DNA from: Methanomethylovorans hollandica DSM 15978
GTDB lineage: Archaea > Halobacteriota > Methanosarcinia > Methanosarcinales > Methanosarcinaceae
NCBI RefSeq assembly: GCF_000328665.1
Contig: NC_019977.1
Location: forward strand, 2,100,011-2,164,010
Length of the DNA stretch: 64,000 bases
Direction: 5' to 3'
The notes beneath the pieces were generated by a model, which worked only from the letters and a program-made list of their open reading frames with translations, was not told the origin of the DNA and did no database searches. Below, piece after piece: positions 12,000 through 53,390 of this stretch. The number at the start of each line of letters is the position of its first letter. Position 1 is the stretch's first letter. The position numbers were made by a program, and so were the translations under genes.

Positions 12000-12140
12000 A
12001 TTGATACTCCGAACCGACAATAATCGCCTCTTATTGAACCATATTAAACACATGTGAGAATAAATATATATAACTATCTGAAAAGTCTTAAATATAAAAT
12101 CTCCATATAGAGAATATAAGAAATGATAGGAGAATAATTT

Positions 12141-14075: not shown

Positions 14076-14241
14076 AAATATTAATTTTTACACTTACAGT
14101 AAACTAATCTTTTATTTATATAAGACAAGGTTGTATTAAATTTAGTATATTAAGTTTTCGAGGTATGTATTTATATTTTATCTCATATTAGAGTAAATAA
14201 CAATAAAGAATAGACTTAAAAATACGTAATATAAACGGGCC

Positions 14242-14574
14242 ATGAGCAAAATGAAGATATGCGTTACTACGAAGGACAATGGTCCTGAAGCGAAAACTGA
14301 CCCACATTTTGGAAGATGTGCATATTTTATGTTCTTAGATACGGACACCATACAGCATGAATTTGTGAAGAATCCCTATGCTGCTGAATCCCAGGGTGCT
14401 GGCGTGCAGGCTGCACAGTATATTGCAGACCAGGGAGCAGACATGCTGATCTGCGGGAACCCTGGCCCAAATGCCGTATCAGTAATGGAAACTGCAGGCA
14501 TAAGGATAGTGAAGTATCCCGAAATGAAAGCTACGGAAGCTGTACAAAAATTTCTTGAAACAAATGATATTTAA
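14242..14574 (+). CDS. Dinitrogenase iron-molybdenum cofactor (NifX/NifB-C) family protein 1
   Basis: A 110-residue single-domain protein of the NifX/NafY fold: KICVTTKDNG, then DPHFGRCAYF, QAAQYIADQGADMLICGNPGPNA and a final KYPEMKATEAVQKFL. Such proteins bind metal-cofactor precursors in nitrogenase assembly, but stand-alone versions occur widely in non-fixing anaerobes. No nif structural genes are present in this window. The start could also be the ATG at 14251. It ends 11 bp before a paralogue and lies upstream of two MinD-ferredoxin ATPases. Confidence 0.82.
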   Translation: MSKMKICVTTKDNGPEAKTDPHFGRCAYFMFLDTDTIQHEFVKNPYAAESQGAGVQAAQYIADQGADMLICGNPGPNAVSVMETAGIRIVKYPEMKATEAVQKFLETNDI

Positions 14575-14585
14575 AAGGTGAAAAT

Positions 14586-15011
14586 ATGAAGATATGTGTA
14601 CCATCTATGGGTGAAACTGGCCTGGAAGACCAGGTCGGACAGCATTTTGGAAAAGTTTTGAACTATATTATGTACGATACAGAAACCAGCGAAGTTTCAG
14701 TAATACCCAATACAAGTGAGCACAATGGCGGAGTAGGCCTGCCTCCTGAACTGATGTCCCAAAATGGAGTCAGTGTTATGCTTTGCGGAGGTCTTGGGAC
14801 AAAAGCTGTTGCAATGTTTGAGCAATATGGAATAGAAGTATATGTGGGAGCGCAGGGCACTATCTGGGATGCTCTGAAAGCATGGGAAACAGGAAAATTA
14901 CAAAAGGCAACCATGGACAACGCATGCACTTCTCATGAACACGACGACCACAATCATAGCCATGATCATCACAATCATCACAGTCATGATCACGGTCATC
15001 AGCACCACTAA
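14586..15011 (+). CDS. NifX-family protein 2 with histidine-rich tail
   Basis: A 141-residue paralogue of the preceding gene: KICVPSMGETGLEDQVGQHF, then LPPELMSQNGVSVMLCGGLG and YVGAQGTIWDALKAW. After residue about 115 it carries a tail of alternating His, Asp and Asn (about 17 His in the last 27 residues), a likely Ni/Zn/Fe/Co-binding or storage segment. The ribosome binding site aaaaggtg sits just upstream. It is in one operon with its paralogue and the two ATPases that follow. Confidence 0.85.
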   Translation: MKICVPSMGETGLEDQVGQHFGKVLNYIMYDTETSEVSVIPNTSEHNGGVGLPPELMSQNGVSVMLCGGLGTKAVAMFEQYGIEVYVGAQGTIWDALKAWETGKLQKATMDNACTSHEHDDHNHSHDHHNHHSHDHGHQHH

Positions 15012-15062
15012 AGTTCACATCCTCTGCAGAATGACAACAACATAAAAAGTAACAGAGGCTTC

Positions 15063-15908
15063 ATGAGAATAGCAGTAGCAAGTGGCAAAGGAGGTACTGG
15101 TAAGACCACAGTGTCCCTTAACCTTGCATTATCCCTTGGAAATGTTCAGCTCCTCGACTGTGATGTAGAAGAGCCGAACTGCAATCTGTTCCTGGACCAT
15201 AAACTTGAAAAAGTAGGAGATGTGGAGATCCAGGTACCTTTTATTTCAAAAGAAAAGTGTGATCTGTGTATGAAATGTGTAGATGTCTGCCGTTTCAACG
15301 CACTTGTTAAACTGCCTAAAAACCTCATGTTCTTTCCCAAATTATGCCATGGCTGTGGAGCATGTTCCATTATATGCCCACAGGGTGCTATATATGAGGA
15401 AGCAAGATCCATCGGGACCATTGAAAGGTCCGTTTCAAAAAATTGCGGCACAGAGCTATATCAAGGTCTATTGAATATCGGCGAGCCTATGGCCTCTCCT
15501 ATAATCCATGCACTTAAAACACATATTGATGATACAAGGACCGTGATCATAGACTCTCCGCCAGGTACTGCATGCCCGGTCATTTCTGCCATAACCGGGG
15601 CAGATTACTGTGTGCTTGTCGCTGAGCCCACACCTTTTGGATTACATGACCTGTCACTCGCAGTGGAACTGGTAAAAGAAATGTGTATCCCATATGGAGT
15701 GGTGATCAACAGATGTGACATAGGCGATGAAAGAGTGGAAAGATATTGTTCTGAGAACAACATTCCGGTGCTTATGAAGATACCAAATGAAATGAAAATA
15801 GCTGAACTGTACTCTAAGGGTATTCCTTTCGTGCTGCAAATGCCACACTGGAAAGAAAAGTTCCTTTATATGTTCAGACAACTCCAAGCGCTGATAGGAA
15901 GGTGTTGA
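15063..15908 (+). CDS. MinD-superfamily ATPase with inserted ferredoxin domain 1
   Basis: A 281-residue P-loop ATPase. Walker A is GKGGTGKTT (8-16). After QLLDCDVEEPN, a 2x[4Fe-4S] ferredoxin module is inserted: Cys 66, 69, 72, 76 and Cys 95, 98, 101, 105. The MinD-type VIIDSPPGTACPV follows. This is the COG1149 family, nearly always encoded as a tandem pair next to NifX-like and Mrp/NBP35 genes. It probably couples ATP hydrolysis to electron delivery or Fe-S handling (inference; no established substrate). The stop is immediately followed by the next gene with a shared aaggtg ribosome binding site. Confidence 0.85.
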   Translation: MRIAVASGKGGTGKTTVSLNLALSLGNVQLLDCDVEEPNCNLFLDHKLEKVGDVEIQVPFISKEKCDLCMKCVDVCRFNALVKLPKNLMFFPKLCHGCGACSIICPQGAIYEEARSIGTIERSVSKNCGTELYQGLLNIGEPMASPIIHALKTHIDDTRTVIIDSPPGTACPVISAITGADYCVLVAEPTPFGLHDLSLAVELVKEMCIPYGVVINRCDIGDERVERYCSENNIPVLMKIPNEMKIAELYSKGIPFVLQMPHWKEKFLYMFRQLQALIGRC

Positions 15909-15909
15909 A

Positions 15910-16782
15910 ATGCCACAAAAGATCACTGTTATCAGTGGCAAAGGTGGTACCGGCAAGACCACTCTTACAGCGGCTTTTGCTTCCCTCGCGAACAAAGTCC
16001 TGATAGCAGATTGTGACGTGGATGCTGCGGATATTCATCTGATACTGGATCCAGAATCGACCAGTAAAATGGATTTCTATGGCATGGAAGTAGCTTCAAT
16101 CAACGAGGACAAATGTTCTGCCTGTGGCTTATGTGTGGAAAGATGCAGGTTTGGTGCTATCTCAAAAGAATTGGTGATCGATGCACATATCTGCGAAGGA
16201 TGTGGCGTATGCTCGCTTATCTGTCCTGAAAATGCCATAACAATGAAGGAACATAAAGCTGGAGAAATATTCAGATCTGTAACAAGATTTGGTCCTTTAA
16301 TTCATGCGAGGTTAGGAATAGGAGAAGAGACCGGCGGAAAACTGGTCTCGATGGTTAGAAAGATCTCCAGTGAAATGGCTGCAGAGAATGACATTGATAT
16401 AATTATTATAGACGGACCTCCGGGAACAGGATGCTCTGTAATTGCTTCCATATCTGGCGTGGACCTTGTATTCATAGTTACAGAACCAAGTGTATCAGGG
16501 ATACATGACCTTGAGAGGGTACTTGAGGTCACTGCTCATTTTGGGATAAAGGCAGTTGTCTGTATCAACAAATACAACATCAATGAAGAAAAAACAGCAA
16601 ATATAGAAGAATTCTGTAAAATTAAAGGTATTGATGTAGTAGGCAAGCTCCCTCTGAGTGACATCCCCATTAAAGCAATGCTTGAAAGCCAAACAGTTAT
16701 AGAATATGATGATAGCATATTTTCCGGAGCAGTTAGGGACATGTGGCGTAAGATAATGACATGCGATACGTTGAAAGAATAA
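15910..16782 (+). CDS. MinD-superfamily ATPase with inserted ferredoxin domain 2
   Basis: A 290-residue paralogue of the preceding gene with the same layout: Walker A GKGGTGKTT (10-18), ADCDVDAADIH, ferredoxin Cys 69, 72, 75, 79 and 95, 98, 101, 105, then IIIDGPPGTGCSV. The start is one base after the previous stop, so the two are translationally coupled and probably form a heterodimer (inference). It is the last gene of the cluster; 650 bp of non-coding DNA follows. Confidence 0.85.
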   Translation: MPQKITVISGKGGTGKTTLTAAFASLANKVLIADCDVDAADIHLILDPESTSKMDFYGMEVASINEDKCSACGLCVERCRFGAISKELVIDAHICEGCGVCSLICPENAITMKEHKAGEIFRSVTRFGPLIHARLGIGEETGGKLVSMVRKISSEMAAENDIDIIIIDGPPGTGCSVIASISGVDLVFIVTEPSVSGIHDLERVLEVTAHFGIKAVVCINKYNINEEKTANIEEFCKIKGIDVVGKLPLSDIPIKAMLESQTVIEYDDSIFSGAVRDMWRKIMTCDTLKE

Positions 16783-17431
16783 AAGATGAGAGGTGGAATT
16801 TTTAAACTAGATGCACAATGAAAGGCATCTAAAAAGTAATTGCTAAAAAGTATTGTAATGAGAGACCAAGTTTACCTTAAAGCTTTCCTATGTGCGTTAA
16901 GTCATCAGTTGTCAGCTTAGTATTCTTATGTTCTGCCCTGCACATTGTTGGTTACTATCCATCCGAGCAAAGTATAATTTTTATGGGTATTCAGAAAAAA
17001 TATTGATTTTTTACGTTTTTGTTGGAGGAGGTAATTCTGGATGGATGGTAACACAACTTAGATTGTATTAAGCTTTTATTAGATATAAATATTACTGTGT
17101 TACCAAACATTATTTGCACCTTTTATTGTAGCTTATTATTTGAAAAAATACACTCTGCATTTGTACACAAATATTTTAAATCAATTAAATTTAAGTTATA
17201 ACATTCTATTTGAAATGGCTAATAACATATGGATTACTACTACAGGCATAGGGGTAGTATACCATCAGTTAAGGTAACATAAAAGATGCCACGATGTAAT
17301 ACATTAATAGAACATGTTTAAAGAAAAAACAACCATTCATCACCTTTTTATTGCATTATCACCTTTCTTTTAATAAGAATAGGAGAAACTTTTCATATAC
17401 CTATTCACTAAAAAGAGGAGGAAGAAAAGAT
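16783..17431. other. Intergenic region, 649 bp, rich in inverted repeats
   Basis: No convincing gene. A 7-bp stem TAGATGC/GCATCTA (16808-16831) follows the MinD operon. At 16947-17105 two overlapping long stems compete (see separate entry). The rest is AT-rich, with a TATA-like aagtataattttta at about 16970. A strong ribosome binding site (gaggagg, 17415-17421) at the right edge serves the Sm-like gene at 17432. Confidence 0.45.
16947..17105 (+). ncRNA. Candidate structured RNA or mobile-element relic with two competing stems
   Basis: Bases 16951-16964 pair with 17039-17052 over 14 bp (one G-T wobble), extended by GTTG/CAAC at 16947-16950 and 17054-17057 with one bulged base. The right arm also belongs to a second perfect 10-bp inverted repeat, 17046-17055 with 17096-17105. 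The two stems cannot form together. A ggaggagg followed by ATG (17041) lies at the right arm but opens only a six-codon frame. It could be a switch-like leader, a small RNA or a MITE relic. I cannot show it is transcribed. Confidence 0.35.
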
Positions 17432-17608
17432 ATGCAATCATTCATTGTTGAACACTATCTGCAAAAAAATGTAGATGTATATTGTGGTGGACCAGATACC
17501 TTCCAGGGAATAGTTGAAGCCTGTGCTGATGGAGTCCTTACTCTCAGGAAAGAGGACAAGTACACTCACATAGCTATTGACAAGATCATCGCTATCTGGG
17601 AGAAATAA
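17432..17608 (+). CDS. Small Sm/Lsm-like protein
   Basis: A 58-residue protein. The ATG at 17432 has an agaggagg ribosome binding site, which rules out the longer frame from 17351. The pattern is that of a short five-strand Sm barrel: V-V-Y-GG, TFQGIVEACADGVLTLR (Sm1-like G-V-x5-DG-L), then YTHIAIDKIIAIWE (Sm2-like). It is smaller than archaeal Lsm (70-80 residues) and lacks a clear RG motif. It could be an RNA-binding protein of methanogens or simply share the small barrel fold. Confidence 0.65.
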   Translation: MQSFIVEHYLQKNVDVYCGGPDTFQGIVEACADGVLTLRKEDKYTHIAIDKIIAIWEK

Positions 17609-17617
17609 TTCATCCGA

Positions 17618-17642
17618 GAGTAGAAAGTTTTACTTTCTACTC
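17618..17642 (+). terminator. Perfect 10-bp hairpin after the Sm-like gene
   Basis: GAGTAGAAAG (17618-17627) and CTTTCTACTC (17633-17642) flank a 5-nt loop, starting 9 bp after the stop of the Sm-like gene. There is no long T tract, so it may be a 3'-end stabiliser rather than a terminator. Confidence 0.55.
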
Positions 17643-17947
17643 CAATAGCTGCACATTTCGCAGTGTTCCGATGCTTCACAATGGCAAAAATAAACAGAGT
17701 AAGCTGCGGAAGATTTAAGAGACTGTATGCAAAAATAATTTTGCACTATACTTATTTGATTCAACCCATCATAACTAAAATAACCTTCTCTTTTGTTTAT
17801 AAAGAGATATTTGCAGGCTTAACGGCCGTTTACATGTGGATTATTTTTGTTATGATGTCCCTTGACAATATAACAAACATTCATTATAATTATCAAAGTG
17901 CTTTTATTGGAGAAGCGAGATAAGATTAAGTATAGCAGGGGATAGAT
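17643..17947. other. Intergenic region, about 300 bp
   Basis: Beyond the hairpin I see AT-rich DNA with an 86-codon frame (17663-17923) that I do not believe: no ribosome binding site and no recognisable fold. The promoter of the small membrane gene at 17948 should lie here. Confidence 0.35.
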
Positions 17948-18136
17948 ATGTCCAGCATCCTTAACAAAAAAGCTGGTGGATCTCACCCACTGGCAAATGC
18001 GACTCTGGATTATGCAGAGGTCCTTATTGCACTTCTTATCCTGATACTATTAGCGCTTTCAATAGACAGGGCAGTAGATTTTTTTAGCCTGATAAAAGCA
18101 GTTCTTTGTCCTGGCGGTTTCTCATACGGGCCATAA
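17948..18136 (+). CDS. Small single-span membrane protein, unknown
   Basis: A 62-residue protein I do not recognise. It has a polar N-terminus (LNKKAGGSHPLANATLDYAE), one strongly hydrophobic segment at about residues 25-41 (VLIALLILILLALSI) and a short amphipathic tail ending CPGGFSYGP. A purine-rich gcaggggataga precedes the ATG. It is convergent with the PGF-CTERM gene. Coding status is moderately supported by composition only. Confidence 0.45.
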   Translation: MSSILNKKAGGSHPLANATLDYAEVLIALLILILLALSIDRAVDFFSLIKAVLCPGGFSYGP

Positions 18137-18154
18137 AATGCCTGAAACATAAAT

Positions 18155-18178
18155 AAAAAAGAAAGAAAGAAAGAAAGA
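18155..18178. repeat. GAAA microsatellite
   Basis: A run of A followed by about five GAAA units between two convergent genes. It is complementary in character to the T/C-rich end of the next gene and may help end transcription; no further function is seen. Confidence 0.6.
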
Positions 18179-18187
18179 GGATTTTTC

Positions 18188-18823
18188 TTATTTCCTCTTT
18201 TCTACGAACAGAAGTGCAATGAATGCGAAAATAGCTGAAAACACTACAAATCCTGGGGTCGAAGGTACAGATACAGCACCCTTAGGTTGTTCTCCGAAAT
18301 TAAGGGCTTCAATTGCATCGATATCTGAACCAGGGGACCTGCCAGAAATACTTGTTTCCCTATCTTCGATCTTCACATATCTTGCCCAATCGAGATCTGA
18401 ATCACCAAGATCGAACTCAGCAGTTCCTATTCCCTCACCCAGGGATTCCCACGCATCCATATCCTGGCTGACAAAAACTTCATATGCTTCAGGGGTGTCC
18501 ATACCATAGAAAATCTGGTCGGTCTCATATACTCTCAGGTCATCCCCTTCTTCATCAAGGATTACCTCATTCGCACCCATATCAACTACCACATATCCGC
18601 CGCCCAATGACATTGGTTCGATCTTTTTCAGATCTACGACGCCTATAATATAACTATCAAGATTGTTGATATTGGCCGTCCCCCCTAATTCCTTTTCAAC
18701 AACAATGTTAGCATAGGCACGACTGTCAGTTCCCGGGTTTCTCTCATCTGCAAATGCAACGATCGAGAAAGAGAACATAAGAATCAACGATATGATCATA
18801 TACGATATTCTTCTTTTTTGCAT
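18188..18823 (-). CDS. PGF-CTERM-anchored secreted protein
   Basis: A 211-residue exported protein. I start at 18823 (MQKRRISYM) because gggtggtcgc lies directly before it. A signal peptide runs to about residue 25. The mature part contains a jelly-roll-like region (VVVDMGANEVILDEEGDDL then YEVFVSQDMDAWESLGEG and WARYVKIED), reminiscent of discoidin/F5-8C-type domains. The C-terminus has STPGF, a hydrophobic span and KRK: the archaeal PGF-CTERM signal processed by archaeosortase A and replaced by a lipid. The function on the cell surface is unknown. Confidence 0.75.
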   Translation of the reverse strand: MQKRRISYMIISLILMFSFSIVAFADERNPGTDSRAYANIVVEKELGGTANINNLDSYIIGVVDLKKIEPMSLGGGYVVVDMGANEVILDEEGDDLRVYETDQIFYGMDTPEAYEVFVSQDMDAWESLGEGIGTAEFDLGDSDLDWARYVKIEDRETSISGRSPGSDIDAIEALNFGEQPKGAVSVPSTPGFVVFSAIFAFIALLFVEKRK

Positions 18824-18949
18824 GCGACCACCCATAGTGAATTGTCATAATTGATACTTACTTATCTGTAGATAAAACTATCTGTATTTTCAGAGAATAC
18901 TCTGCATCTAAAGCACAGCATATTGAAAAAAAGAATGCCTGCTGAGGTA

Positions 18950-20389
18950 TTAGTTATTATTCCTTATTCTATCCGACCTCCCTGCAAAAGATGCCCATGG
19001 CAGTGTACAGAGTGGGCATTCCGGGCCAAAACCAGCAGCTGCATAACCTCGCATTCCACCTGCTACGTTGAAAACCTGATCAAAACCTTTTTGTTTCAGA
19101 ATACTGGCAGCCATGCTTGATCGTTGCCCGCTTCCGCATATAAGAACTGTTTCTTCTGCAGGATCAAGTTCCACATACCTCTCCCTCAACTCAGCTACAG
19201 GAATATTGAGAGCATTCTGAATATGGGAAGTTTTGTATTCACTTAATGCCCGAACATCCACAAGGACAGCTCTCCTGCCTTGGTTCACCCGCTGATTCAA
19301 TTCATGGGAAGATAGCTGTGGTACATGCGCTGTAGGATAACCGGCAGTGACCCATGCATACATACCACCGGCCAAATACCCATAAACTCTGTCAAGTCCC
19401 ACCCTGTGCAACTGTCTGGAAGCCTCAACGGCCTGTCCATATCCTTCGCAGACCAGGAGTATGTCTTTATCCGGAGGAAGCAACCATCCTGCAAAGGTTG
19501 GAAAATTACCATTCATATCAATGCTGTACGCTCCTGGAACGTGTTGTCCTCCAAATGCTTCAAAGTTGCGTACATCCAGCACCAGAACATTGTTATCGGC
19601 TGTCAGAGAGGAAAACGCAGGGGGCTCAAGCTCTTCCAGAGAGGGCAAATCAATAACCTTTACAGGACCTTGTCGATTGATATCGGTACACCTGCTGAAA
19701 TGATCAGGTGCATCGGGCATACCATGTGTCAGAGAGTCTATGAATTTCCTACGATCATTTATCTTCAGTGCATAGTTGAATTTCTTTTCGTACCCTATAG
19801 TGCTTGTTCTCTTTGCAGCCATTGCCCTGCCACAGAGAGAACCTGCACCGTGGGCAGGATACACTTCACAGGTATCGGGTAATCTCATAATTTTCTCATG
19901 GAGACTGTCATAAAGTTTGGAAGCAAGTTCCTCCGCTCTTCCTGGAAATAGATCAGGACGGCCCACATCCCCTACAAAAAGAGTATCTCCACAGAACAAT
20001 GCCACCGGATCTTCTCCCCGGGACCTGTCAGTCACCACATAGGAAATGTGTTCAGGAGTGTGTCCTGGGGTTTCAAGCACCTTTATGGTCATATCTTCCA
20101 TCTCAAAAGAATTGCCTTCTAGGAGAGGTACATGATCAAAATCGAAATTAGCAGACCTGGGGCCACATATAGCGGCTCCGGTCTTCTCTGCCAGATCCAT
20201 GTGCCCGGATATGAAATCTGCATGCAGGTGAGTTTCAAGTATATACTTGATCCTGGTTCCCATCTCTCTTGCAACTTCAATATATATTTCAGGATCGCGG
20301 CGAGGATCTATTATAGCGCATTCCTTGTCCCCGCCCAAAAAATAGGAACTATGTGCTATCTTTTTGGTAAAAAACTGCTGTATTATCAT
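18950..20389 (-). CDS. MBL-fold / double-rhodanese sulfur-transfer protein (persulfide dioxygenase-like)
   Basis: A 479-residue cytoplasmic protein. Residues 1-235 are a glyoxalase II/ETHE1-like metallo-beta-lactamase domain (HLHADFISGH at 54-63, ETPGHTPEH, FCGDTLFVGDVGRPDLF). Two rhodanese domains follow: one near 260-355 with CEGYGQ in the active loop, one near 370-460 with CGSGQRS. A C-terminal CPLC pair is an extra. Such fusions handle glutathione or CoA persulfide and other sulfane sulfur. In a strict anaerobe oxygen-dependent persulfide oxidation is puzzling, so detoxification or sulfur trafficking is more likely (inference). It is divergent from the DtxR-like gene. Confidence 0.85.
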   Translation of the reverse strand: MIIQQFFTKKIAHSSYFLGGDKECAIIDPRRDPEIYIEVAREMGTRIKYILETHLHADFISGHMDLAEKTGAAICGPRSANFDFDHVPLLEGNSFEMEDMTIKVLETPGHTPEHISYVVTDRSRGEDPVALFCGDTLFVGDVGRPDLFPGRAEELASKLYDSLHEKIMRLPDTCEVYPAHGAGSLCGRAMAAKRTSTIGYEKKFNYALKINDRRKFIDSLTHGMPDAPDHFSRCTDINRQGPVKVIDLPSLEELEPPAFSSLTADNNVLVLDVRNFEAFGGQHVPGAYSIDMNGNFPTFAGWLLPPDKDILLVCEGYGQAVEASRQLHRVGLDRVYGYLAGGMYAWVTAGYPTAHVPQLSSHELNQRVNQGRRAVLVDVRALSEYKTSHIQNALNIPVAELRERYVELDPAEETVLICGSGQRSSMAASILKQKGFDQVFNVAGGMRGYAAAGFGPECPLCTLPWASFAGRSDRIRNNN

Positions 20390-20491
20390 TTAATTCACTC
20401 CCATTTTGTATATTGGTTATTTTGTTTATCTAGAAATAAATGACTTATAAATATATATGACCTTAAAGTCCCTCATATCTATAGCACTTAT

Positions 20492-21004
20492 TTGAATAAC
20501 AATCCAAATAACAATTTGGAATTTGATACAATATCAAAAAACTTAAATAAATCCTATTTGCTACAAGAATTCATGGAAGTGTTTACCGGACTGGAAGTAT
20601 CCCCGCGAAAAGTTGATTACCTGAAGTTCCTTCTCAAAAAAGAAGAAACTGTGCGTACGACTGACATATCATCCGAACTCAAAGTGGACCCATCCACTAC
20701 AACAAAGACCCTTGCAGATCTTGCCTCTCAGGGATATGTGGACCATGTACCCTACAGAGGAGTACGGCTGACAGAAAGGGGTAAAGAATATGCCCAGTTC
20801 CTTATCCACCGACATAACATTTTAAGCTTGCTTTTGACACATTATGGCCTCTCTGCCGAAGAATCCTGCCATGAGGTGTCCAGGTTCGAAGCGTATGTTT
20901 CAAGAGATGCTGTAGAGAAGATATGTGCTTCAATGGGTCATCCTGCTGTAAGCGCCTGTGGGAAAATCCCTCATGGATCATGCAGAATAGGGGATATTGC
21001 CTGA
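20492..21004 (+). CDS. DtxR/MntR-like metal-dependent regulator
   Basis: A 170-residue protein with a winged helix at about 38-95 (VDYLKFLLKKEETVRTTDIS, LKVDPSTTTKTLADLASQGYV, VRLTERGKEYA). A DtxR-type dimerisation/metal domain follows (HRHNILSLLLTHYGL, ESCHEVSRFEAYVSRDAVEKI) and the C-terminal tail is Cys-rich. The metal-ligand pattern H-x2-x-E-C-H-E is typical of MntR/IdeR. It lies directly upstream of a metal ABC importer on the same strand, so it probably represses that importer when metal is plentiful. The start is uncertain: TTG at 20492 follows a TATA box (ttataaatatata, about 20445) and has no ribosome binding site; the ATG at 20573 is the alternative. Confidence 0.75.
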   Translation: MNNNPNNNLEFDTISKNLNKSYLLQEFMEVFTGLEVSPRKVDYLKFLLKKEETVRTTDISSELKVDPSTTTKTLADLASQGYVDHVPYRGVRLTERGKEYAQFLIHRHNILSLLLTHYGLSAEESCHEVSRFEAYVSRDAVEKICASMGHPAVSACGKIPHGSCRIGDIA

Positions 21005-21029
21005 TTAGAACGGTACTTTAATTATAGAT

Positions 21030-21063
21030 GTTTGGTATGAGACCAAACTTTTTGGATATATGG
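21030..21063 (+). promoter_or_regulatory. Candidate operator and TATA box of the metal importer operon
   Basis: GTTTGGT and ACCAAAC form a perfect 7-bp inverted repeat (21030-21036, 21042-21048), just upstream of a TATA-like ggatatatgg (21054-21063). A protein bound here would cover the TFB recognition element. The adjacent DtxR-like gene is the obvious candidate regulator (inference). Confidence 0.45.
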
Positions 21064-21095
21064 AATAAAAATGAGAGTTCAATGAAAGGTGGAAT

Positions 21096-22034
21096 ATGAA
21101 CAAACTAATAAAACCATTAGTTATCTGTGCGATCTGTGCTATATTGCTTTTTAGCGGTTGTACTGAGAAAGCACAGAATAAGAATACAGAAACTTCGGCT
21201 GATGAACTGGTAGTTGCCGTAAGCGTTCTTCCACAGGCAGAATTTGTGGAACAGATAGGAGGAGATAAAGTTCGCACCGTGGTAATGATCCCTTCCGGAG
21301 CAAGCGTGCATACATACGAACCCACTCCAAATCAACTGAAGGATCTCAGCAAAGCACAGATCTATGTAAAGGTAGGATCGAACCTGGATTTTGAACTTGT
21401 CTGGATGGATGACCTCCTGTCTGTTAACCCTGATATGTATGTAGTGAACTCATCTGAAGGTATCCAGTTCAGGAGCATAGAAGAACATGCTGAAGAAGAA
21501 GCCAACACTTCAGAAGAGCAAATGGAAGAAGAGGAACGTGAACATACAGGTCTTGATCCGCATGTCTGGACTTCACCTCAGAAAGCAAAGATAATTGTCA
21601 AGAACATATATGACGGACTTGTGGCCGTTGACCCTGAGAATGAAGAAACATACAAACAGAACTATGATGTTTACATCACCAAACTGGATGAAGCAGATGC
21701 CAAACTGAAAGCTGCACTTGCCGGAAAAGAAGGAAGCAGTTTCATTGTGTATCATCCTGCGTGGGGATATCTTGCAGATGATTACGGGTTACATGAGATC
21801 TCCATAGAAATAGAAGGCAAGGAGCCAAGCGCACAGGATATGCAAAAGCTGATCGACACTGCTAAAGAAAAAGGAATAAAGGTCATCTTCGTACAAAAAG
21901 GTTTCAGCACATCAAGCGCCCAGACCATTGCCAAGCAGATAGGCGGAGAAGTGGTGGAGATAGACCCACTTGCAAAGGATTATATAGATAACTTGGGTAG
22001 GGTTTCTAATGCATTTGCAAAAGGACTGGCATAA
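21096..22034 (+). CDS. znuA: Zinc/manganese ABC transporter substrate-binding lipoprotein (ZnuA-like)
   Basis: A 312-residue receptor of the cluster A-I metal family. The lipobox LLFSGC is near residue 23. Metal-ligand positions are ASVHTYEP (His1), LDPHVWTSP (His2) and YHPAWGYLADDYGL (His3), with a final Asp/Glu in VVEIDPLAKDY. An acidic stretch between the first two (EEHAEEEANTSEEQMEEEER, about 130-150) corresponds to the charged, metal-binding loop of ZnuA proteins, here with few His. The ribosome binding site is aaaggtgg. It heads the operon with the ATPase and permease; zinc is more likely than manganese, but this is inferred. Confidence 0.85.
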   Translation: MNKLIKPLVICAICAILLFSGCTEKAQNKNTETSADELVVAVSVLPQAEFVEQIGGDKVRTVVMIPSGASVHTYEPTPNQLKDLSKAQIYVKVGSNLDFELVWMDDLLSVNPDMYVVNSSEGIQFRSIEEHAEEEANTSEEQMEEEEREHTGLDPHVWTSPQKAKIIVKNIYDGLVAVDPENEETYKQNYDVYITKLDEADAKLKAALAGKEGSSFIVYHPAWGYLADDYGLHEISIEIEGKEPSAQDMQKLIDTAKEKGIKVIFVQKGFSTSSAQTIAKQIGGEVVEIDPLAKDYIDNLGRVSNAFAKGLA

Positions 22035-22784
22035 ATGACAGAGGTCGTAGAGCTTCAGGACATATGGGTGAGTTATGGTGACGTCACAGTACTGGAGGCA
22101 GTTGACCTTACAGTACAGGATAAGGATTTCCTGGGAATCATTGGCCCAAACGGAGGAGGGAAAAGTACACTTCTTAAAGTAATCCTGGGCCTCATAACCC
22201 CTGACAAAGGGATTGTGAAGCTTCTGGGCGACAATCCCGTAAAGACGCGCAAACATGTGGGGTATGTACCCCAATATGCCTCCTTCAATCTAAATTTCCC
22301 TATCAGTGTCTTGGAAGTAGTCCTTATGGGACGCATGAACACGGTCGGACCTTTAAGGAGATACGGTAAAAAGGACCATGATGCTGCACAGGAAGCTCTG
22401 AAGAAGGTCAAGATGTTGGAATACAAGGACCGGCAGATCAGTGAGCTTTCCGGCGGACAGCGTCAGAGGGTGTTTATAGCCAGGTCACTTGTAACCGACC
22501 CAAAACTCCTGATACTTGATGAACCAGCAACAGGAGTAGACTTTGTCATGCAGAAAGAGTTCTACGAACTGTTACAGGAACTTAAACAACACATAGCTAT
22601 TATCATGGTCTCTCATGATATCAGCGCTATTTCTGTCTACGTGGACAAGGTAGCATGTCTTAATAGAAATTTACACTATCACAATTCCAAGGAACTAAGT
22701 CCGGAGGATCTTGAAGCCTCCTATGTATGCCCGGTGGAAATGATTGCACACGGGATGCCACACAGAGTGCTTAAACTACATTGA
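22035..22784 (+). CDS. znuC: Zinc/manganese ABC transporter ATP-binding protein (ZnuC-like)
   Basis: A 249-residue ABC ATPase. Walker A is GPNGGGKST, the Q-loop is YVPQYASF, the signature is LSGGQRQR, Walker B is LLILDEPATGVD and the switch is MVSHD. The start immediately follows the receptor stop (TAAATG). It partners the receptor at 21096 and the permease at 22797. Confidence 0.9.
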   Translation: MTEVVELQDIWVSYGDVTVLEAVDLTVQDKDFLGIIGPNGGGKSTLLKVILGLITPDKGIVKLLGDNPVKTRKHVGYVPQYASFNLNFPISVLEVVLMGRMNTVGPLRRYGKKDHDAAQEALKKVKMLEYKDRQISELSGGQRQRVFIARSLVTDPKLLILDEPATGVDFVMQKEFYELLQELKQHIAIIMVSHDISAISVYVDKVACLNRNLHYHNSKELSPEDLEASYVCPVEMIAHGMPHRVLKLH

Positions 22785-22796
22785 GGTAGTAAAAAC

Positions 22797-23612
22797 ATGA
22801 TAGAGATCCTTCAGTATGATTTTATGAGAAATGCCCTGTTCACTGCGATCCTTGTAAGCATAGCCTGTGGAATAATAGGCGTCTATGTTGTTGTCAAGAA
22901 GATCGTGTCCATTAGCGGAGGAATCTCCCATGCTTCTTTTGGTGGCGTTGGCCTTGGATATTTCCTTGGCATTAATCCCCTTTATGGCCTCATACCCTTC
23001 AGCCTCTTTTCCGCCCTGGCAATGGGGCTTGTGAGCAAACGTGCAAAGATGTCCGAAGATACTGCTACTGGTATACTCTGGTCGCTGGGCATGGCCATAG
23101 GGATCGTTTTTATCAACCTGACACCAGGCTATGCACCTGACCTGATGACCTATCTTTTCGGTAATATTCTCACGGTTTCAACATCTGACCTATATGTAAT
23201 GCTTGCTCTGGACGCCCTCATAGTGGTGATCGTATATGTGTTCTATAAAGAGTTCATGGCAATGTGCTTCGATGAGGAATTTGCATCTGTTATAGGAGTT
23301 CCCGTAGAACGCATGTATCTACTCCTTTTATGCCTCATAGCCCTCACTATTGTGTTACTCATAAAAGTAGTTGGCATAATCCTTATCATCGCCCTGCTTA
23401 CAATGCCTGCTTCACTGAGTGCACATTATACGCATAACCTGCGTAACATGATGTACCTATCCATGTTCTTTGGAGCATTTTTCAGCATTACAGGCCTTTC
23501 CCTGTCCTACCTTCTGGATATCCCATCGGGTGCGACCATCATCCTGGTGATGGCAGGAGTATACATCATCCATTTCATATACGACGGACTTACAAAGAAA
23601 GTACACGCCTAA
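22797..23612 (+). CDS. znuB: Zinc/manganese ABC transporter permease (ZnuB-like)
   Basis: A 271-residue ABC-3 family permease with seven to eight hydrophobic segments. The N-terminal ISGGISHASFGGVGLGYFLG motif is diagnostic for metal-type permeases, and the cytoplasmic FDEEFASVIGVPV loop contacts the ATPase. Spacing from the ATPase stop is 12 bp. It ends convergent with an SMR-type exporter. Confidence 0.9.
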   Translation: MIEILQYDFMRNALFTAILVSIACGIIGVYVVVKKIVSISGGISHASFGGVGLGYFLGINPLYGLIPFSLFSALAMGLVSKRAKMSEDTATGILWSLGMAIGIVFINLTPGYAPDLMTYLFGNILTVSTSDLYVMLALDALIVVIVYVFYKEFMAMCFDEEFASVIGVPVERMYLLLLCLIALTIVLLIKVVGIILIIALLTMPASLSAHYTHNLRNMMYLSMFFGAFFSITGLSLSYLLDIPSGATIILVMAGVYIIHFIYDGLTKKVHA

Positions 23613-23633
23613 CAAGGAATGAAAATAAGGTGA

Positions 23634-23957
23634 TCATTGTAGATAGCTGCTTAAATGCAATCCTACAACTCCTACTATAACCAGTACTATAGATATTATT
23701 TTTACAAGGGACATTGGTTCATGAAAACCCACGTATCCGATAATCGAGATCATTGCCACGCCAAGACCAGCCCATATAGCATAGGCAACACTTACATCTA
23801 TCTTTTTCAGGGCGATGGTAAAAGACACAAAACTGATACCATAGAACACAAATATCAATATTGATGGCAACATTCGTGTGAACCCTTCGGACAGTTTCAT
23901 ACATGTGGTCCCGCATATCTCGAACAGTATGGCAGCAGCAAGGTATAGATAACTCAT
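23634..23957 (-). CDS. Small multidrug resistance (SMR/EmrE-like) transporter
   Basis: A 107-residue protein with four transmembrane helices. The essential membrane glutamate is present in ILFEICGTTCMK (Glu13) and the GXG-type motif is IWAGLGVAMIS. Conserved positions match the QacE/EmrE family, which forms dual-topology dimers exchanging protons for cationic compounds; Gdx-type guanidinium exporters are the alternative. It is a single-gene unit. Confidence 0.85.
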   Translation of the reverse strand: MSYLYLAAAILFEICGTTCMKLSEGFTRMLPSILIFVFYGISFVSFTIALKKIDVSVAYAIWAGLGVAMISIIGYVGFHEPMSLVKIISIVLVIVGVVGLHLSSYLQ

Positions 23958-24248
23958 AATCCTCCTTTATGTTTTTTAGATCTTGTGAGAAAATTGAATT
24001 TAGTTAGCAGCAGTGTTTGACACCTAATTATAAACAATTTCCTCTGAGTCGAACATGTCTACAAGAGAGAAAACATAACATTATAGAAATGTAGCTTCCG
24101 GAAGGTAAAATCAGCTTTCTGTTGTTTCTCCAAAATAAAGATGACTTTAATTAAAAGGAGGCGAATGTTATTTACAATTATCAATACCTTGCCATAACGA
24201 TAAGTGTATATACCAACACCCTCTTTTTTTAAATAGGGTGCGTGTTTC

Positions 24249-47942: not shown

Positions 47943-48252
47943 AAGCAGCGTAGGGAGTGAATTTTAGTATTGGCCCATGTCTTGATGATGTGGGCTTTGA
48001 TTCTATTTTTGGTGATGTGCAGCATTCTATACATCAGATACTATTTCAGAATTATGATTCAGTGTATCGATTCCTAATTCTATGATAAGAACGGAACCCG
48101 AATATTCTGTAGACATTGACACGAAAGATGCTTATTAATTGCACAAATTGTACATAGAACAATTCCATCATTAAAAACAATTGAATCACTGCCTTAATCG
48201 TAATTGTAATTTTAATATAAATTTTTGTAGAAAGTGTTTCGATGTCAAAATA
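47943..48252. other. Intergenic region, 310 bp
   Basis: The hairpin at 47973-47995 ends the fusion gene. From about 48100 the DNA turns AT-rich, marking the left edge of the compositional island. No gene seen. Confidence 0.5.
47973..47995 (+). terminator. Hairpin and T-rich tail after the fusion gene
   Basis: GCCCATGTC (47973-47981) pairs with GATGTGGGC (47987-47995) over 9 bp with two G-T wobbles and a 5-nt loop; a T-rich stretch follows to about 48011. Confidence 0.5.
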
Positions 48253-51200
48253 CTATAGGATATCCTCCCTTACCATGTAACCAACGACAGATTCTTTCTC
48301 AATTAAAAAATTTAATACAACTAAAAGTTCTTGTTTCAATTTTACAGTTTTTCTTATATCTTCCCGATTCTTATAACTGTACTTCTTCACAATATTTTCT
48401 ATATAATAAATGGTATTTGTCTCTAACTTCTCATTCCATAAATTCTGATTAGTAGTCAATATTTCAGAAATCCAAGATATGCCATTGTTAAGATAGTTAC
48501 TTCCTATACCATTTAACAATTTTGAAATTGAATAAAGGGTAGAAGTACAAGGCCCTATCTTTTTTATTATATTTGCAAAGAATCGTCTATTAGCATCTGT
48601 TAGTGTTTGCCAATCTGTGTCTTTTTCGTTCCAGTAGGTTTGAGCGAAAAGATAACTTTGCACAATACTTTTTACATCCTTTTGTTTATCACCATCTTTA
48701 CATAAATCAACTACTTTCTCATAAAACATATCCCATACTTTCCAGAAATTATTGTAGCTATTCAACCTATATTCTGCTACTATGAATTCTTCAAATAAGT
48801 CAGCTATAGCTTCTGAACTGCTGAAATTATCAATAAATGGCCTTAGATAAGTAGGAATATCTTGTTCAGAGGAACTCAACGTAAAATATGCTAGTTTTTT
48901 TAAAAAGGAGTGCCCAGTGTTATAATCAACTATTTTCTTGGTTCTGTTAGATAATAGTTCTTTTGCAAAAGTGGAAATAATAGACTGAGCAATTATTTTA
49001 TGCTCGTTATTGTCGGTATTTAATGGGATTATCTTAAAAGCTGTTTTTAATATACGTGGATCTAATTGCTCGATATTTTTTAAATCATCAAATGATATCT
49101 TGTTCTCGATGACTTTTTTTATATCTTCTTCATTCTCTGTTAAGAACTTTTGATTCACTTCCGTATATAAGTCATGTGTATTTCTTACATATTTTCCATA
49201 TCGAAGATCTTTTTTTAATGCTTCATATCTCGGTTTTAGGAGTAAATATCCGAAAAGTAAAGATTGAGCCTCTTTGAAATTTACTGACCATATACTATCG
49301 ATTCCTATAATAGCGAATTCATTGAATTCTGTTCCTGCCATGCCAAAAGTTTCGTCTTTAAACATGGTTAATATCAAAATTATTTTTATTTTTATTTTAT
49401 CTTCTGGAAATTTTTGAAGCAATAGAGGAAGAACAGAAAGTGTTGACTGTGTTCCATCTGATACTTGATATTTGTAATTTGGCTGTAAAGAATGACAAGC
49501 AACATTTAGAACGACCTCTTTACAAAAAATTCTATCATCTGCACTGATATCTCCAAAGTACTCTCTTAATAAAATAGAGCAAACCTCTGCAGGGATGGAA
49601 TAATTAAAAAGATAGAACGTATCTTCAGGGGCTTGCTCTAAAGTATAAACTATTTCTTTAACTTCTTTCAATGCAAGCTGAGGATTATTTTCATATTGTG
49701 TATATTGTTGATGTCTTTGATCATTTTGTATTTTATATTTAGCCCATAATTTTAATCTGCCGTATTTCATTGGTTCCAAGTCATTTTCTACTGATCTGTC
49801 TATGTATTTTCTTAGTTCAGAATCGATCTCAGGGTTTAAATGAATAACAAAACCATCTTCTTTTTCTTCGATTGTAGGTTTAATTTTTCTTTTGTCCATC
49901 CTTGCTAGAAAGAGTCGCCATGTTTTATCATCTTCAGTTTCATCTTGCTTGTTTGGTAGTTTTTGATGATATTCGTCAAGAATATTCCATATAATTCTTT
50001 GTTTTCTATCTGCCTCATTTTCGCTAATATCTTTGCTCCTAAAAAGCTGATAGTTTAAAATTATATTCTCTATGGATAGCTTTCGGTGTTTATCATCACA
50101 AGCTTCTCTCCTCTCGTCTGCATATATTTCTTTTTTGTAGTCTATCCTAAATCCAGCTAAACCCAAAAGGGTATTATTATTGTATTGTTCAGAGAATAAT
50201 CTTTGGGTGTCATAGAATAGTAATTGCTTAGTTTGGAATAGCGCCATTGCAACATTAAAAGTTTTATCGGGATATGCTAAAACAATGCTAGTTACTACTG
50301 CTGTAATAGAAGCTGATTTCGAGTTTTTTAGCAAAAACAATAGCAGCCTTTCTAAAGTCTGTTGATCTGTATATTTCCCAAAATCTAAGAGAAATTTCTC
50401 TAAAGCCATATGGATTGATTCAAGTAGATAAGTAGATCCTTTTGTACCTCTATAAGTGTTCCAAAGTCTATCATTAATGTATTGCTTATAAGTGCGATCA
50501 TCAATTGTGACTTCTACTTCTTCAATTTTGTCTTCATATTTTGCAAAGTCCGACTTTGCATAACAGTCAACTACTTTGTTAGTAAATTTGATTATAAAAA
50601 GGATTGTTTTCTCGGGAGAACGTTTAAGTAACCAATAAATAGGTGTTTGAAATGCACTTGATGGATAGTAATTTTGATGATTTTCTTCTATACAAAAATA
50701 CTTTTCAATTTCCATTATTGAATACGACTCAAATTTTTCTTTTTCAGGGATTTGGAACCAAAATAAATCTGCAAGTTTTAATATGCAATCGGGAAGTGTC
50801 TTAATAACTTCAATGTTTTCCATGCATTTAATCAAAATAGTATTTACCATATCATAATATGGATCTCCGTATCTTTTCCATTTATTATTTAATATGTTTT
50901 CAAAGATCTGATTTAATTCATATTTGATTTCGGATGCACCAGATAAAATAGTTTTGCAAAGATTTTCTTTGACATCACCATGAGAATAGTAGCTATCTTT
51001 TTGAACTAGCCATTGATAATACTTTAAAGCTATTAGACTAGATAATTTTGTGGTTTTTCCGTGCTTGAATTTGCCATTCCAATCGTATATTATGGGTAAT
51101 AAAAAAGAAGTATTTTCCACTCCTATCTGATTCAAAAATTTATACGTAAATTCTATAAGACTATTCCACCCCTCACCCTTGGGTTTGGAAAATATATATT

Positions 51201-52959
51201 CTATTGGATACAAATTTAATTTTTTAATTCCTAATTGTGTAATGAATTCGTAATCAACTTCTTTGCAGGCAATTTTTAGTAAAAATGATATTCTTTTCAG
51301 TAGTTCTTGGTTATTCTCTAGCAATTTCTCTTCAAACAATTCAAAGAAAGTATCTGAATAATCAGAAAGTAAAATCGATATTAAAATCTCATCTTTCCAA
51401 TATAATTGAATCTTTTCATCATCGATTGCTTCTTCAATGAATTGTTGAATTGATTCATCTTTTAATAATAACTTTTCTGAGACCCAATTTCTAAAACTTC
51501 TACGAATCGGAAGCTCTTCTCCAATTCGTTCAAAAAAATCTAAATTATTAGACCTTTTTAAATATGCATTTTGAATTATTCTCTCTAATGCCCATTCTTC
51601 ATAAATATCTTGAGTAATGAAGTAACCTGCTGTATTATATTCTAATATTCCATCATGGTATAATTCTTCCAAAATATATGGATCACAATTTGGGGTCACA
51701 AAGAATTGAGATTCTTTAACTCTTTGCAAAGCAATATGTAAAAAGCATTGTTCCCTTGTTGACTTTGATTTTTTAATTTCTTTATTCCACAAATTGTTTC
51801 TAAAATTCAAATAACCAAGGTTTTCTTTTGTATAGTACTTTAGGTATTCTTTCAAATAGAACGAATTTTTGATAAGTTCTATTACTTTTTTATCCTCTGG
51901 AAGTATGAACCCATGCTTCTGGGATAGTTCAATTAATTTGCCTTCATCTAGAGTTTGTAGATCTATATTGTAAGGTATAATCTTATAAATTTCAATAAAT
52001 TGGTAATTGAGATCTTCTAAATAGTTAGTTCTTGTAGTAAAAATAATCTTCCAATTGTTTTTTATCATGGCAGATAGACACTCTTTAAAAGGATCTGTAT
52101 TTTGTAGATCCAATAATCTTTCTGCCGAATCAATGACAATAATCTTATTTTCTTCCTCTCTATGAGCTTCTATAAAATCTTGTAAATTAAAATTTGAAAA
52201 TAGAACCTTTATGTTGCCTACGTTAAACTCATTAGACTTAAAAATATAGAATGGAATCTTCTTTTCTAATTCTTGGTAATATTTTTTAATGACAGCAGTT
52301 TTTCCTACTCCTCCAACTCCACTTAAGATTATTATCTGTCTTTCACTAATGTTATTTTTAATCTTTTGTAAAATGTTACTTCTGTCAATTTCTATTTTTT
52401 CAGTATCGAACTCTATATATGTTTGAATTTGAGATAGCAATGACTCTGTACTTTTTTCTTTTTCTTTTAAAAGGGTAATAATACTTCCATCTAACAAAAA
52501 GAAGTGAGATGCTATATTTTCATTGGTAGTTGTTACAAAAGGGGATTCAAAAAAGCTTGCTGTTCTCCAATCGATTTCAATACTTAAATCATTGGCTCTT
52601 TGTTCTATAGTTTTTTTTGTTTTTGGAGCATCTTGCCCTGTTCCTTTAGTCCAGTCCAGATTTGTATAAACAATAATTTTAGTAATATCGGGGTAATCTC
52701 TTTTGCTTTTGTTTAACATTTCAGTGAAATCATCGAGATGATCTTTCAAAGGAGTCTCATAAAATTTTGCTTGCCAACCGATTACCTCCCCTTCTTTATT
52801 AATAGGGTTTGTCTCAATCCCAGATTGGTTTTTGTATCGAAAAATGCCCGGAGTCTTGTCGTATTCTTGACAAAAAAGAGAATAGCATAACCACTCAAAA
52901 TTTCTGTGAGGATTGTCACTAAACTTTGCTTTAAATATATTCCAATCTGGTTTAATCAT
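48253..52959 (-). CDS. Avs-like antiviral STAND NTPase with N-terminal nuclease-like domain
   Basis: A 1568-residue protein. Residues 1-150 look like a PD-(D/E)XK/Cap4-type endonuclease domain: E22 in an early helix, G47-I48-E49, then Q63-A64-K65 (IGWQAKF). The NTPase follows: Walker A GVGGVGKT (214-221), Walker B IIVIDSAE (273-280) and WKIIFTTRTN near 303-313, as in STAND ATPases. About 1,200 mostly helical residues with no recognised motif make up the rest, the place where Avs proteins recognise phage proteins. The length and order match Avs (antiviral STAND) sensors. The gene is visibly AT-rich compared with both neighbours, suggesting transfer. No partner gene is adjacent; Avs proteins need none. 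Assignment to a known Avs class is not possible by eye. Confidence 0.72.
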   Translation of the reverse strand: MIKPDWNIFKAKFSDNPHRNFEWLCYSLFCQEYDKTPGIFRYKNQSGIETNPINKEGEVIGWQAKFYETPLKDHLDDFTEMLNKSKRDYPDITKIIVYTNLDWTKGTGQDAPKTKKTIEQRANDLSIEIDWRTASFFESPFVTTTNENIASHFFLLDGSIITLLKEKEKSTESLLSQIQTYIEFDTEKIEIDRSNILQKIKNNISERQIIILSGVGGVGKTAVIKKYYQELEKKIPFYIFKSNEFNVGNIKVLFSNFNLQDFIEAHREEENKIIVIDSAERLLDLQNTDPFKECLSAMIKNNWKIIFTTRTNYLEDLNYQFIEIYKIIPYNIDLQTLDEGKLIELSQKHGFILPEDKKVIELIKNSFYLKEYLKYYTKENLGYLNFRNNLWNKEIKKSKSTREQCFLHIALQRVKESQFFVTPNCDPYILEELYHDGILEYNTAGYFITQDIYEEWALERIIQNAYLKRSNNLDFFERIGEELPIRRSFRNWVSEKLLLKDESIQQFIEEAIDDEKIQLYWKDEILISILLSDYSDTFFELFEEKLLENNQELLKRISFLLKIACKEVDYEFITQLGIKKLNLYPIEYIFSKPKGEGWNSLIEFTYKFLNQIGVENTSFLLPIIYDWNGKFKHGKTTKLSSLIALKYYQWLVQKDSYYSHGDVKENLCKTILSGASEIKYELNQIFENILNNKWKRYGDPYYDMVNTILIKCMENIEVIKTLPDCILKLADLFWFQIPEKEKFESYSIMEIEKYFCIEENHQNYYPSSAFQTPIYWLLKRSPEKTILFIIKFTNKVVDCYAKSDFAKYEDKIEEVEVTIDDRTYKQYINDRLWNTYRGTKGSTYLLESIHMALEKFLLDFGKYTDQQTLERLLLFLLKNSKSASITAVVTSIVLAYPDKTFNVAMALFQTKQLLFYDTQRLFSEQYNNNTLLGLAGFRIDYKKEIYADERREACDDKHRKLSIENIILNYQLFRSKDISENEADRKQRIIWNILDEYHQKLPNKQDETEDDKTWRLFLARMDKRKIKPTIEEKEDGFVIHLNPEIDSELRKYIDRSVENDLEPMKYGRLKLWAKYKIQNDQRHQQYTQYENNPQLALKEVKEIVYTLEQAPEDTFYLFNYSIPAEVCSILLREYFGDISADDRIFCKEVVLNVACHSLQPNYKYQVSDGTQSTLSVLPLLLQKFPEDKIKIKIILILTMFKDETFGMAGTEFNEFAIIGIDSIWSVNFKEAQSLLFGYLLLKPRYEALKKDLRYGKYVRNTHDLYTEVNQKFLTENEEDIKKVIENKISFDDLKNIEQLDPRILKTAFKIIPLNTDNNEHKIIAQSIISTFAKELLSNRTKKIVDYNTGHSFLKKLAYFTLSSSEQDIPTYLRPFIDNFSSSEAIADLFEEFIVAEYRLNSYNNFWKVWDMFYEKVVDLCKDGDKQKDVKSIVQSYLFAQTYWNEKDTDWQTLTDANRRFFANIIKKIGPCTSTLYSISKLLNGIGSNYLNNGISWISEILTTNQNLWNEKLETNTIYYIENIVKKYSYKNREDIRKTVKLKQELLVVLNFLIEKESVVGYMVREDIL

Positions 52960-53390
52960 GTATTTGAATTCATTCCAACATCTTATAAATAAATCGTTTT
53001 CATAGGTTCATAGTGAAAAAGTTCTAAATCGCTTTCAGAATGTAGAAATATGGCATAATATACAGATTTTTATTTAATCGGGTGATAAAGGAATCAATAT
53101 GGTAAAAATAATTACTGTGTATCTAAAAGCCATGCACACAGCTTACAGATTCTGATTTCTTCTTGCTATAAGACGTTAATACATAGCTCCAATTATTATA
53201 TTTGTATTTTAATCCCTCGGTGCTTCATCGTCTATAGATTTTCAATTCTTTCAACTTAGCATTCTTTGTGTCTATAATCCTCTATTTTCGGATCAGTTCT
53301 CAGAATAGAGAGGGTCTATTATCTCGCCTACCTAACCATTCTTACACGAAAAATGTATGTATCTCTCCGAGCATGTAATAACCAGATACG
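52960..53390. other. Intergenic region, 431 bp
   Basis: It holds the divergent promoters of the Avs-like gene (minus) and the UbiD-type gene (plus). The left part is AT-rich like the island; composition normalises near 53340. I see no tRNA, attachment site or further gene. A T/A-rich stretch near 53190-53215 could carry a TATA box. Confidence 0.45.

Follow-up and report, generated by a model that had tools for sequence, protein, structure and literature searches.

The window, a stretch of 64,000 nucleotides from the chromosome of Methanomethylovorans hollandica DSM 15978, contains an avs4 gene at positions 48253-52959 (stop codon included) on the minus strand. The open reading frame starts with ATG, encodes 1568 amino acids and is free of defects. 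On one side the gene is flanked by a methyltransferase/ATP-grasp fusion gene and on the other by genes for UbiD, the large and swivel subunits of AcnX and a B12-radical SAM protein. The UbiD-AcnX neighbours presumably belong to the archaeal mevalonate branch. A preliminary description of this DNA called the gene solitary, and so it appears: the flanking genes are all housekeeping genes, and a scan of ten other window proteins, taken from both sides, rendered no convincing defence gene.

The match to the Avs4 models is far beyond chance, with 2113.4 bits to NCBIfam NF041815 (equivalog cut-off 1500; profile positions 1-1579 of 1579 covered) and 2290 bits to the PADLOC Avs4 model, end to end (1-1570 of 1570). 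The PADLOC models for Avs1, Avs2, Avs3 and Avs5 were unmatched; at E-values up to 1 there was, besides Avs4, a weak hit to mad8 (18.7 bits). In a phmmer search of the PDB, E. coli Avs4 (8dgf, entitled "Avs4 bound to phage PhiV-1 portal") aligned over the full length with 1764 bits and approximately 50% identity, and the annotated avs4 products on E. coli and Salmonella plasmids are likewise about 50% identical over 1568 residues. The protein is thus Avs4 (AVAST type 4), a specific and structurally solved family of anti-phage proteins. The preliminary description was right that this methanogen chromosome encodes a STAND NTPase of the Avs family whose N-terminus is a PD-(D/E)XK nuclease, as the Avs4 models and the conserved residues confirm, but its placement as merely Avs-like was too cautious, since NF041815, PADLOC and 8dgf all give Avs4. 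The explanation as a whole, an Avs4 protein that most likely entered the genome horizontally and in which portal binding would lead to a STAND oligomer and DNA cleavage, is held with high confidence.

Effector, NTPase and sensor domains

The N-terminal effector (residues 1-160, positions 52480-52959, minus strand) is a PD-(D/E)XK nuclease with the residues E22, E49 and Q63-x-K65. Among ten full-length homologues aligned, E22, E49 and K65 are invariant and residue 63 is Q or E. The STAND/AAA NTPase and the helical region that follows it occupy residues ~161-560 (51280-52479, minus strand). Its P-loop, GVGGVGKT at 214-221, follows the pattern GxGG[VI]GKT found in 10/10 homologues, with G214, G216, G217, G219, K220 and T221 invariant and the variable positions differing between homologues. 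The Walker B motif is IDSAE (276-280), of which D277, S278, A279 and E280 are invariant in all ten. The nuclease residues, the P-loop position and the DSAE ending of Walker B had been given earlier and agree with the translation of the open reading frame.

The nearest Pfam family for the nuclease is PF13156, Mrr_cat_2, a family of restriction endonucleases (20.2 bits, just below the cut-off of 22; E=6e-4). The domain was earlier described as PD-(D/E)XK/Cap4-like; the first part of this holds, but the domain lies nearer to Mrr than to Cap4, and Mrr-like is the better description because Mrr_cat_2 is the nearest family. Residues 1-100 are 65% identical to E. coli Avs4. A low-confidence model gives the element order alpha-beta-beta-alpha-beta-alpha-beta, with residues 1-69 at a pLDDT below 50, too poor for fold comparison, so that it is the homology to 8dgf that supports a nuclease fold.

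In Pfam the NTPase domain by itself matches only generic families (AAA, 26.6 bits, above the cut-off; nSTAND3, 18.6 bits, below its cut-off). In a Foldseek search with the model of this region the best match was Avs4 in 8dgf (E=1.5e-50), and Avs3 in 8dgc came at rank 12. An alignment to 8dgf with VIA-align, which mainly tested residues 159-406, gave Z=24.0; the domain placement of 8dgf was not reproduced in it, given an rmsd of 32.6 over 388 residues.

The C-terminal helical-repeat sensor comprises residues ~561-1568 (48256-51279, minus strand). It was initially thought to hold no known motif, which is wrong: it corresponds to the portal-sensing region of Avs4, with a predicted fold like that of 8dgf. 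Residues 501-1568 were modelled as a solenoid of helices, interrupted only by beta-hairpins predicted at 813-828 and 1026-1043. In a structural search 8dgf was its first match (TMq 0.70, 1072 columns, 47% identity), with unrelated helical-repeat proteins ranking far behind. The mean pLDDT values of the AlphaFold models are 59 and 67; this moderate confidence is due to input alignments of only five sequences, and the models therefore serve as additional support for the conclusion, not as its basis.

The sensor half shows approximately 42-66% identity to E. coli Avs4 outside residues 901-1000 and 1201-1300. Between archaeal and bacterial copies it is conserved to about the same degree as the NTPase half and most of the protein. 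The two excepted blocks are less conserved than the rest in an alignment of ten sequences; residues 1201-1300 have 35% identity to E. coli Avs4 and four invariant positions among the ten.

Putative trigger and mode of action

Because conservation in the sensor is similar to that in the remaining protein, the trigger is most likely the same as for E. coli Avs4, namely the portal protein, of HK97 fold, of tailed viruses, here those of archaea. A literature search found no experimental work on archaeal Avs4 among the papers covered, and the portal as trigger is inferred by homology at approximately 50% identity. By analogy with EcAvs4, the C-terminal helical-repeat half would bind the portal of an infecting tailed virus directly, and binding would permit the ATP-loaded STAND domain to assemble into an oligomer. 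The EcAvs4 oligomer is a tetramer (Gao et al. 2022). The clustered N-terminal PD-(D/E)XK nucleases might then cut viral as well as host DNA, and this cleavage would abort the infection by killing or arresting the infected cell. Cleavage of phage and host genomes after sensing of terminase or portal has been reported for the nucleases of Avs1-Avs4 (PMC12931631).

The preliminary description suggested that the trigger might be new, on the premise that archaeal viruses do not share a recognisable terminase and portal with all phages. For methanogens this premise, read as a lack of these proteins, is too strong. Blf4, a lytic methanogen virus, encodes both a portal and a large terminase (PMC8540584), and so does a Methanosarcinales provirus (genome G050, contig 38), whose portal has 330 bits to PF04860 with a cut-off of 39. 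There is thus little to argue for a new trigger, since methanogen viruses encode these proteins in recognisable form and the sensor is conserved at a level similar to most of the protein; the trigger is probably not new.

The provirus lies at 12000-24000 of its contig as a head-tailed module with adjacent genes for TerL, portal, a ClpP-type protease and an HK97-type capsid protein, and it is a candidate source of a trigger for archaeal Avs4. The genome of M. hollandica itself has no PF04860 portal gene in a profile search, so there is no resident virus to show what the window Avs4 faces.

The protein might descend from Avs4 and yet have a sensor that, in archaea, has been adapted to recognise some viral protein different from the portal. 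This is improbable, though it deserves more weight than the other alternatives. It would agree with the low conservation of residues 901-1000 and 1201-1300 and with the range of viruses in the order. MetSV, for instance, is non-tailed. This virus too is named among the viruses of Methanosarcinales (PMC8540584), and PF04860 portal matches were found in merely 3 of the 186 genomes of the order, one of them above the cut-off. On the other hand, outside the two weak blocks the sensor half is conserved nearly as the NTPase half is, the predicted sensor fold is kept, and both blocks are poorly matched to all other family members as well, the few invariant positions in 1201-1300 being a property of the ten homologues together. 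A more specific version, in which archaeal Avs4 has acquired specificity for a methanogen-virus virion protein unseen by bacterial Avs4, with the changes centred on the same two blocks, is slightly less probable again.

As an intact receptor in a cultured methanogen, the window Avs4 could readily be used to test whether bacterial and archaeal tailed viruses have the portal pattern in common, and it is a convenient test object because it is archaeal, intact and probably horizontally acquired.

Genomic site and probable origin of the gene

The GC content of avs4 is 30% in a region of 43%, the lowest among 49 non-overlapping open reading frames of at least 110 residues in the window. The gene lies in DNA (outer limits 48087-53341, from G141 contig 67 and G144) for which the congeners have nothing corresponding at this intergenic position. 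In G141 contig 67 the sequences matching the window up to 48011 and from 53342 are joined with ~61 bp between them, so this contig spans the site and lacks avs4. In G144 the sequence matching 48016-48086 is kept and followed by 494 bp or more. Another contig of G141 carries 1.2 kb of different sequence there. The content of the site upstream of the UbiD gene (window 48012-53341; L057, L059 and L060) thus differs for each congener contig (~61 bp, at least 494 bp or 1.2 kb) and from the avs4 of the window, which suggests that the site is variable. None of the versions compared showed a mobile-element gene.

A profile search of 186 genomes of the order found no Avs4 in other Methanomethylovorans genomes. 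Two of the 186 have an Avs4 above the cut-off, and the same two were found among 393 genomes sampled from the phylum. Avs4 is also rare in the sampled Bacillota (4/348, a count that includes G509, which was taken into the sample by choice). The closest sampled relative of the window protein is from Bacillota (G570, 57% identity). In a tree of 13 rows the window protein and E. coli Avs4 are found in a clade with 96/100 support, nested in the Avs4 clade with 100/100. Both archaeal copies lie inside the bacterial family, and the branch order within the clade is unresolved. A single archaeal lineage for the two copies was considered and is neither established nor rejected by the support of 71/51 for their sister relation.

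The gene probably entered the M. hollandica chromosome by horizontal transfer, in view of its GC content, its absence from the spanning congener contig and its bacterial closest relative. A gain in this lineage is likely, the alternative being loss in the congeners. Carriage by a virus was also considered and there is no sign of it: the viral contigs of IMG/VR rendered no relative of the window Avs4, with search patterns that reach close relatives only, and the one match in phage records is weak and partial.

A transferred gene can also persist as a relic, inactive or without a role in defence, and the atypical base composition, the absence from congeners and the lack of a resident virus portal in the host genome would all fit such a remnant. 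It is nonetheless very unlikely here, because the reading frame is intact across 1568 codons with its start and end in agreement with the family ends, the catalytic residues and those of both Walker motifs are retained, and neutral decay would have disrupted a gene that has diverged from its relatives to ~50% identity. That the protein belongs to the STAND NTPases beyond the Avs clade and merely resembles Avs has next to no probability despite the generic Pfam matches of its NTPase domain, since the full-length scores exceed the Avs4 equivalog cut-off, which by itself refutes this reading, 8dgf aligns end to end, and the strongly supported Avs4 group of the tree contains the window protein.

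More divergent relatives were encountered in another Methanosarcinales genome (L065:528-5627, G062 contig 2) and in two Bacillota (L099 and L100, from G735 and G635). These proteins of ~1700 amino acids match Avs4 only from residue ~142-160 onwards, score 558-580 bits with the Avs4 models, far under the equivalog cut-off, and have unrelated N-terminal regions of ~270-300 residues. They appear to combine a divergent sensor of the Avs4 type with an exchanged effector, an arrangement common to archaea and bacteria. Another relative of the divergent lineage, from a genome of the same family as M. hollandica (L064:505-6509, G157 contig 1), is split into open reading frames of 421 and 1250 amino acids. 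It looks broken by a transposon because the two are separated by a transposase gene of the IS4/5 family that lies on the other strand.

Comparison with known systems

Avs homologues have reportedly been found in bacteria and archaea by Gao et al. (Science 2022). AVAST genes are known in rumen archaea, where they constitute 5.6% of archaeal systems (PMC11834463). The window gene adds a cultured methanogen in which a member of this structurally understood, NLR-like family of immune receptors is present and intact.

The second Methanosarcinaceae Avs4 (L061:13586-18271, G160 contig 27) is also intact, with 1561 amino acids, E at residue 63, 2059 bits (above the equivalog cut-off) and 55% identity to the window protein. 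It is likewise solitary but found at another, unrelated site, where it adjoins ABC-transporter and MoxR/von Willebrand-type genes (neighbours assigned from their sequences). The Avs4 proteins of Bacillota (Neobacillus pocheonensis L002, Paenibacillus L003 and G570) are encoded on bacterial chromosomes or contigs and have 50-57% full-length identity to the window protein, and a consistent difference in domain content was not seen. Avs3, solved with bound PhiV-1 terminase (8dgc), has the same plan of an N-terminal effector, a STAND NTPase and a long helical sensor; however, its identity to the window protein in the structural match is ~11%, and sensor and trigger differ.

The closest characterised system is the Avs4 of E. 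coli plasmids (8dgf; for example pETN48 avs4, WP_000240574.1). The two proteins have the same length, domain order, catalytic residues and P-loop residues and, as predicted here, the same sensor fold, with ~50% identity overall, and both are single-gene systems. They differ in that the E. coli gene is located on a conjugative plasmid while the window gene is archaeal and chromosomal among housekeeping genes, and in that the window protein lacks an insertion of ~19 residues near residue 107. Apart from its archaeal host and its probable horizontal acquisition, the window gene is an ordinary Avs4 and not a new kind of system.
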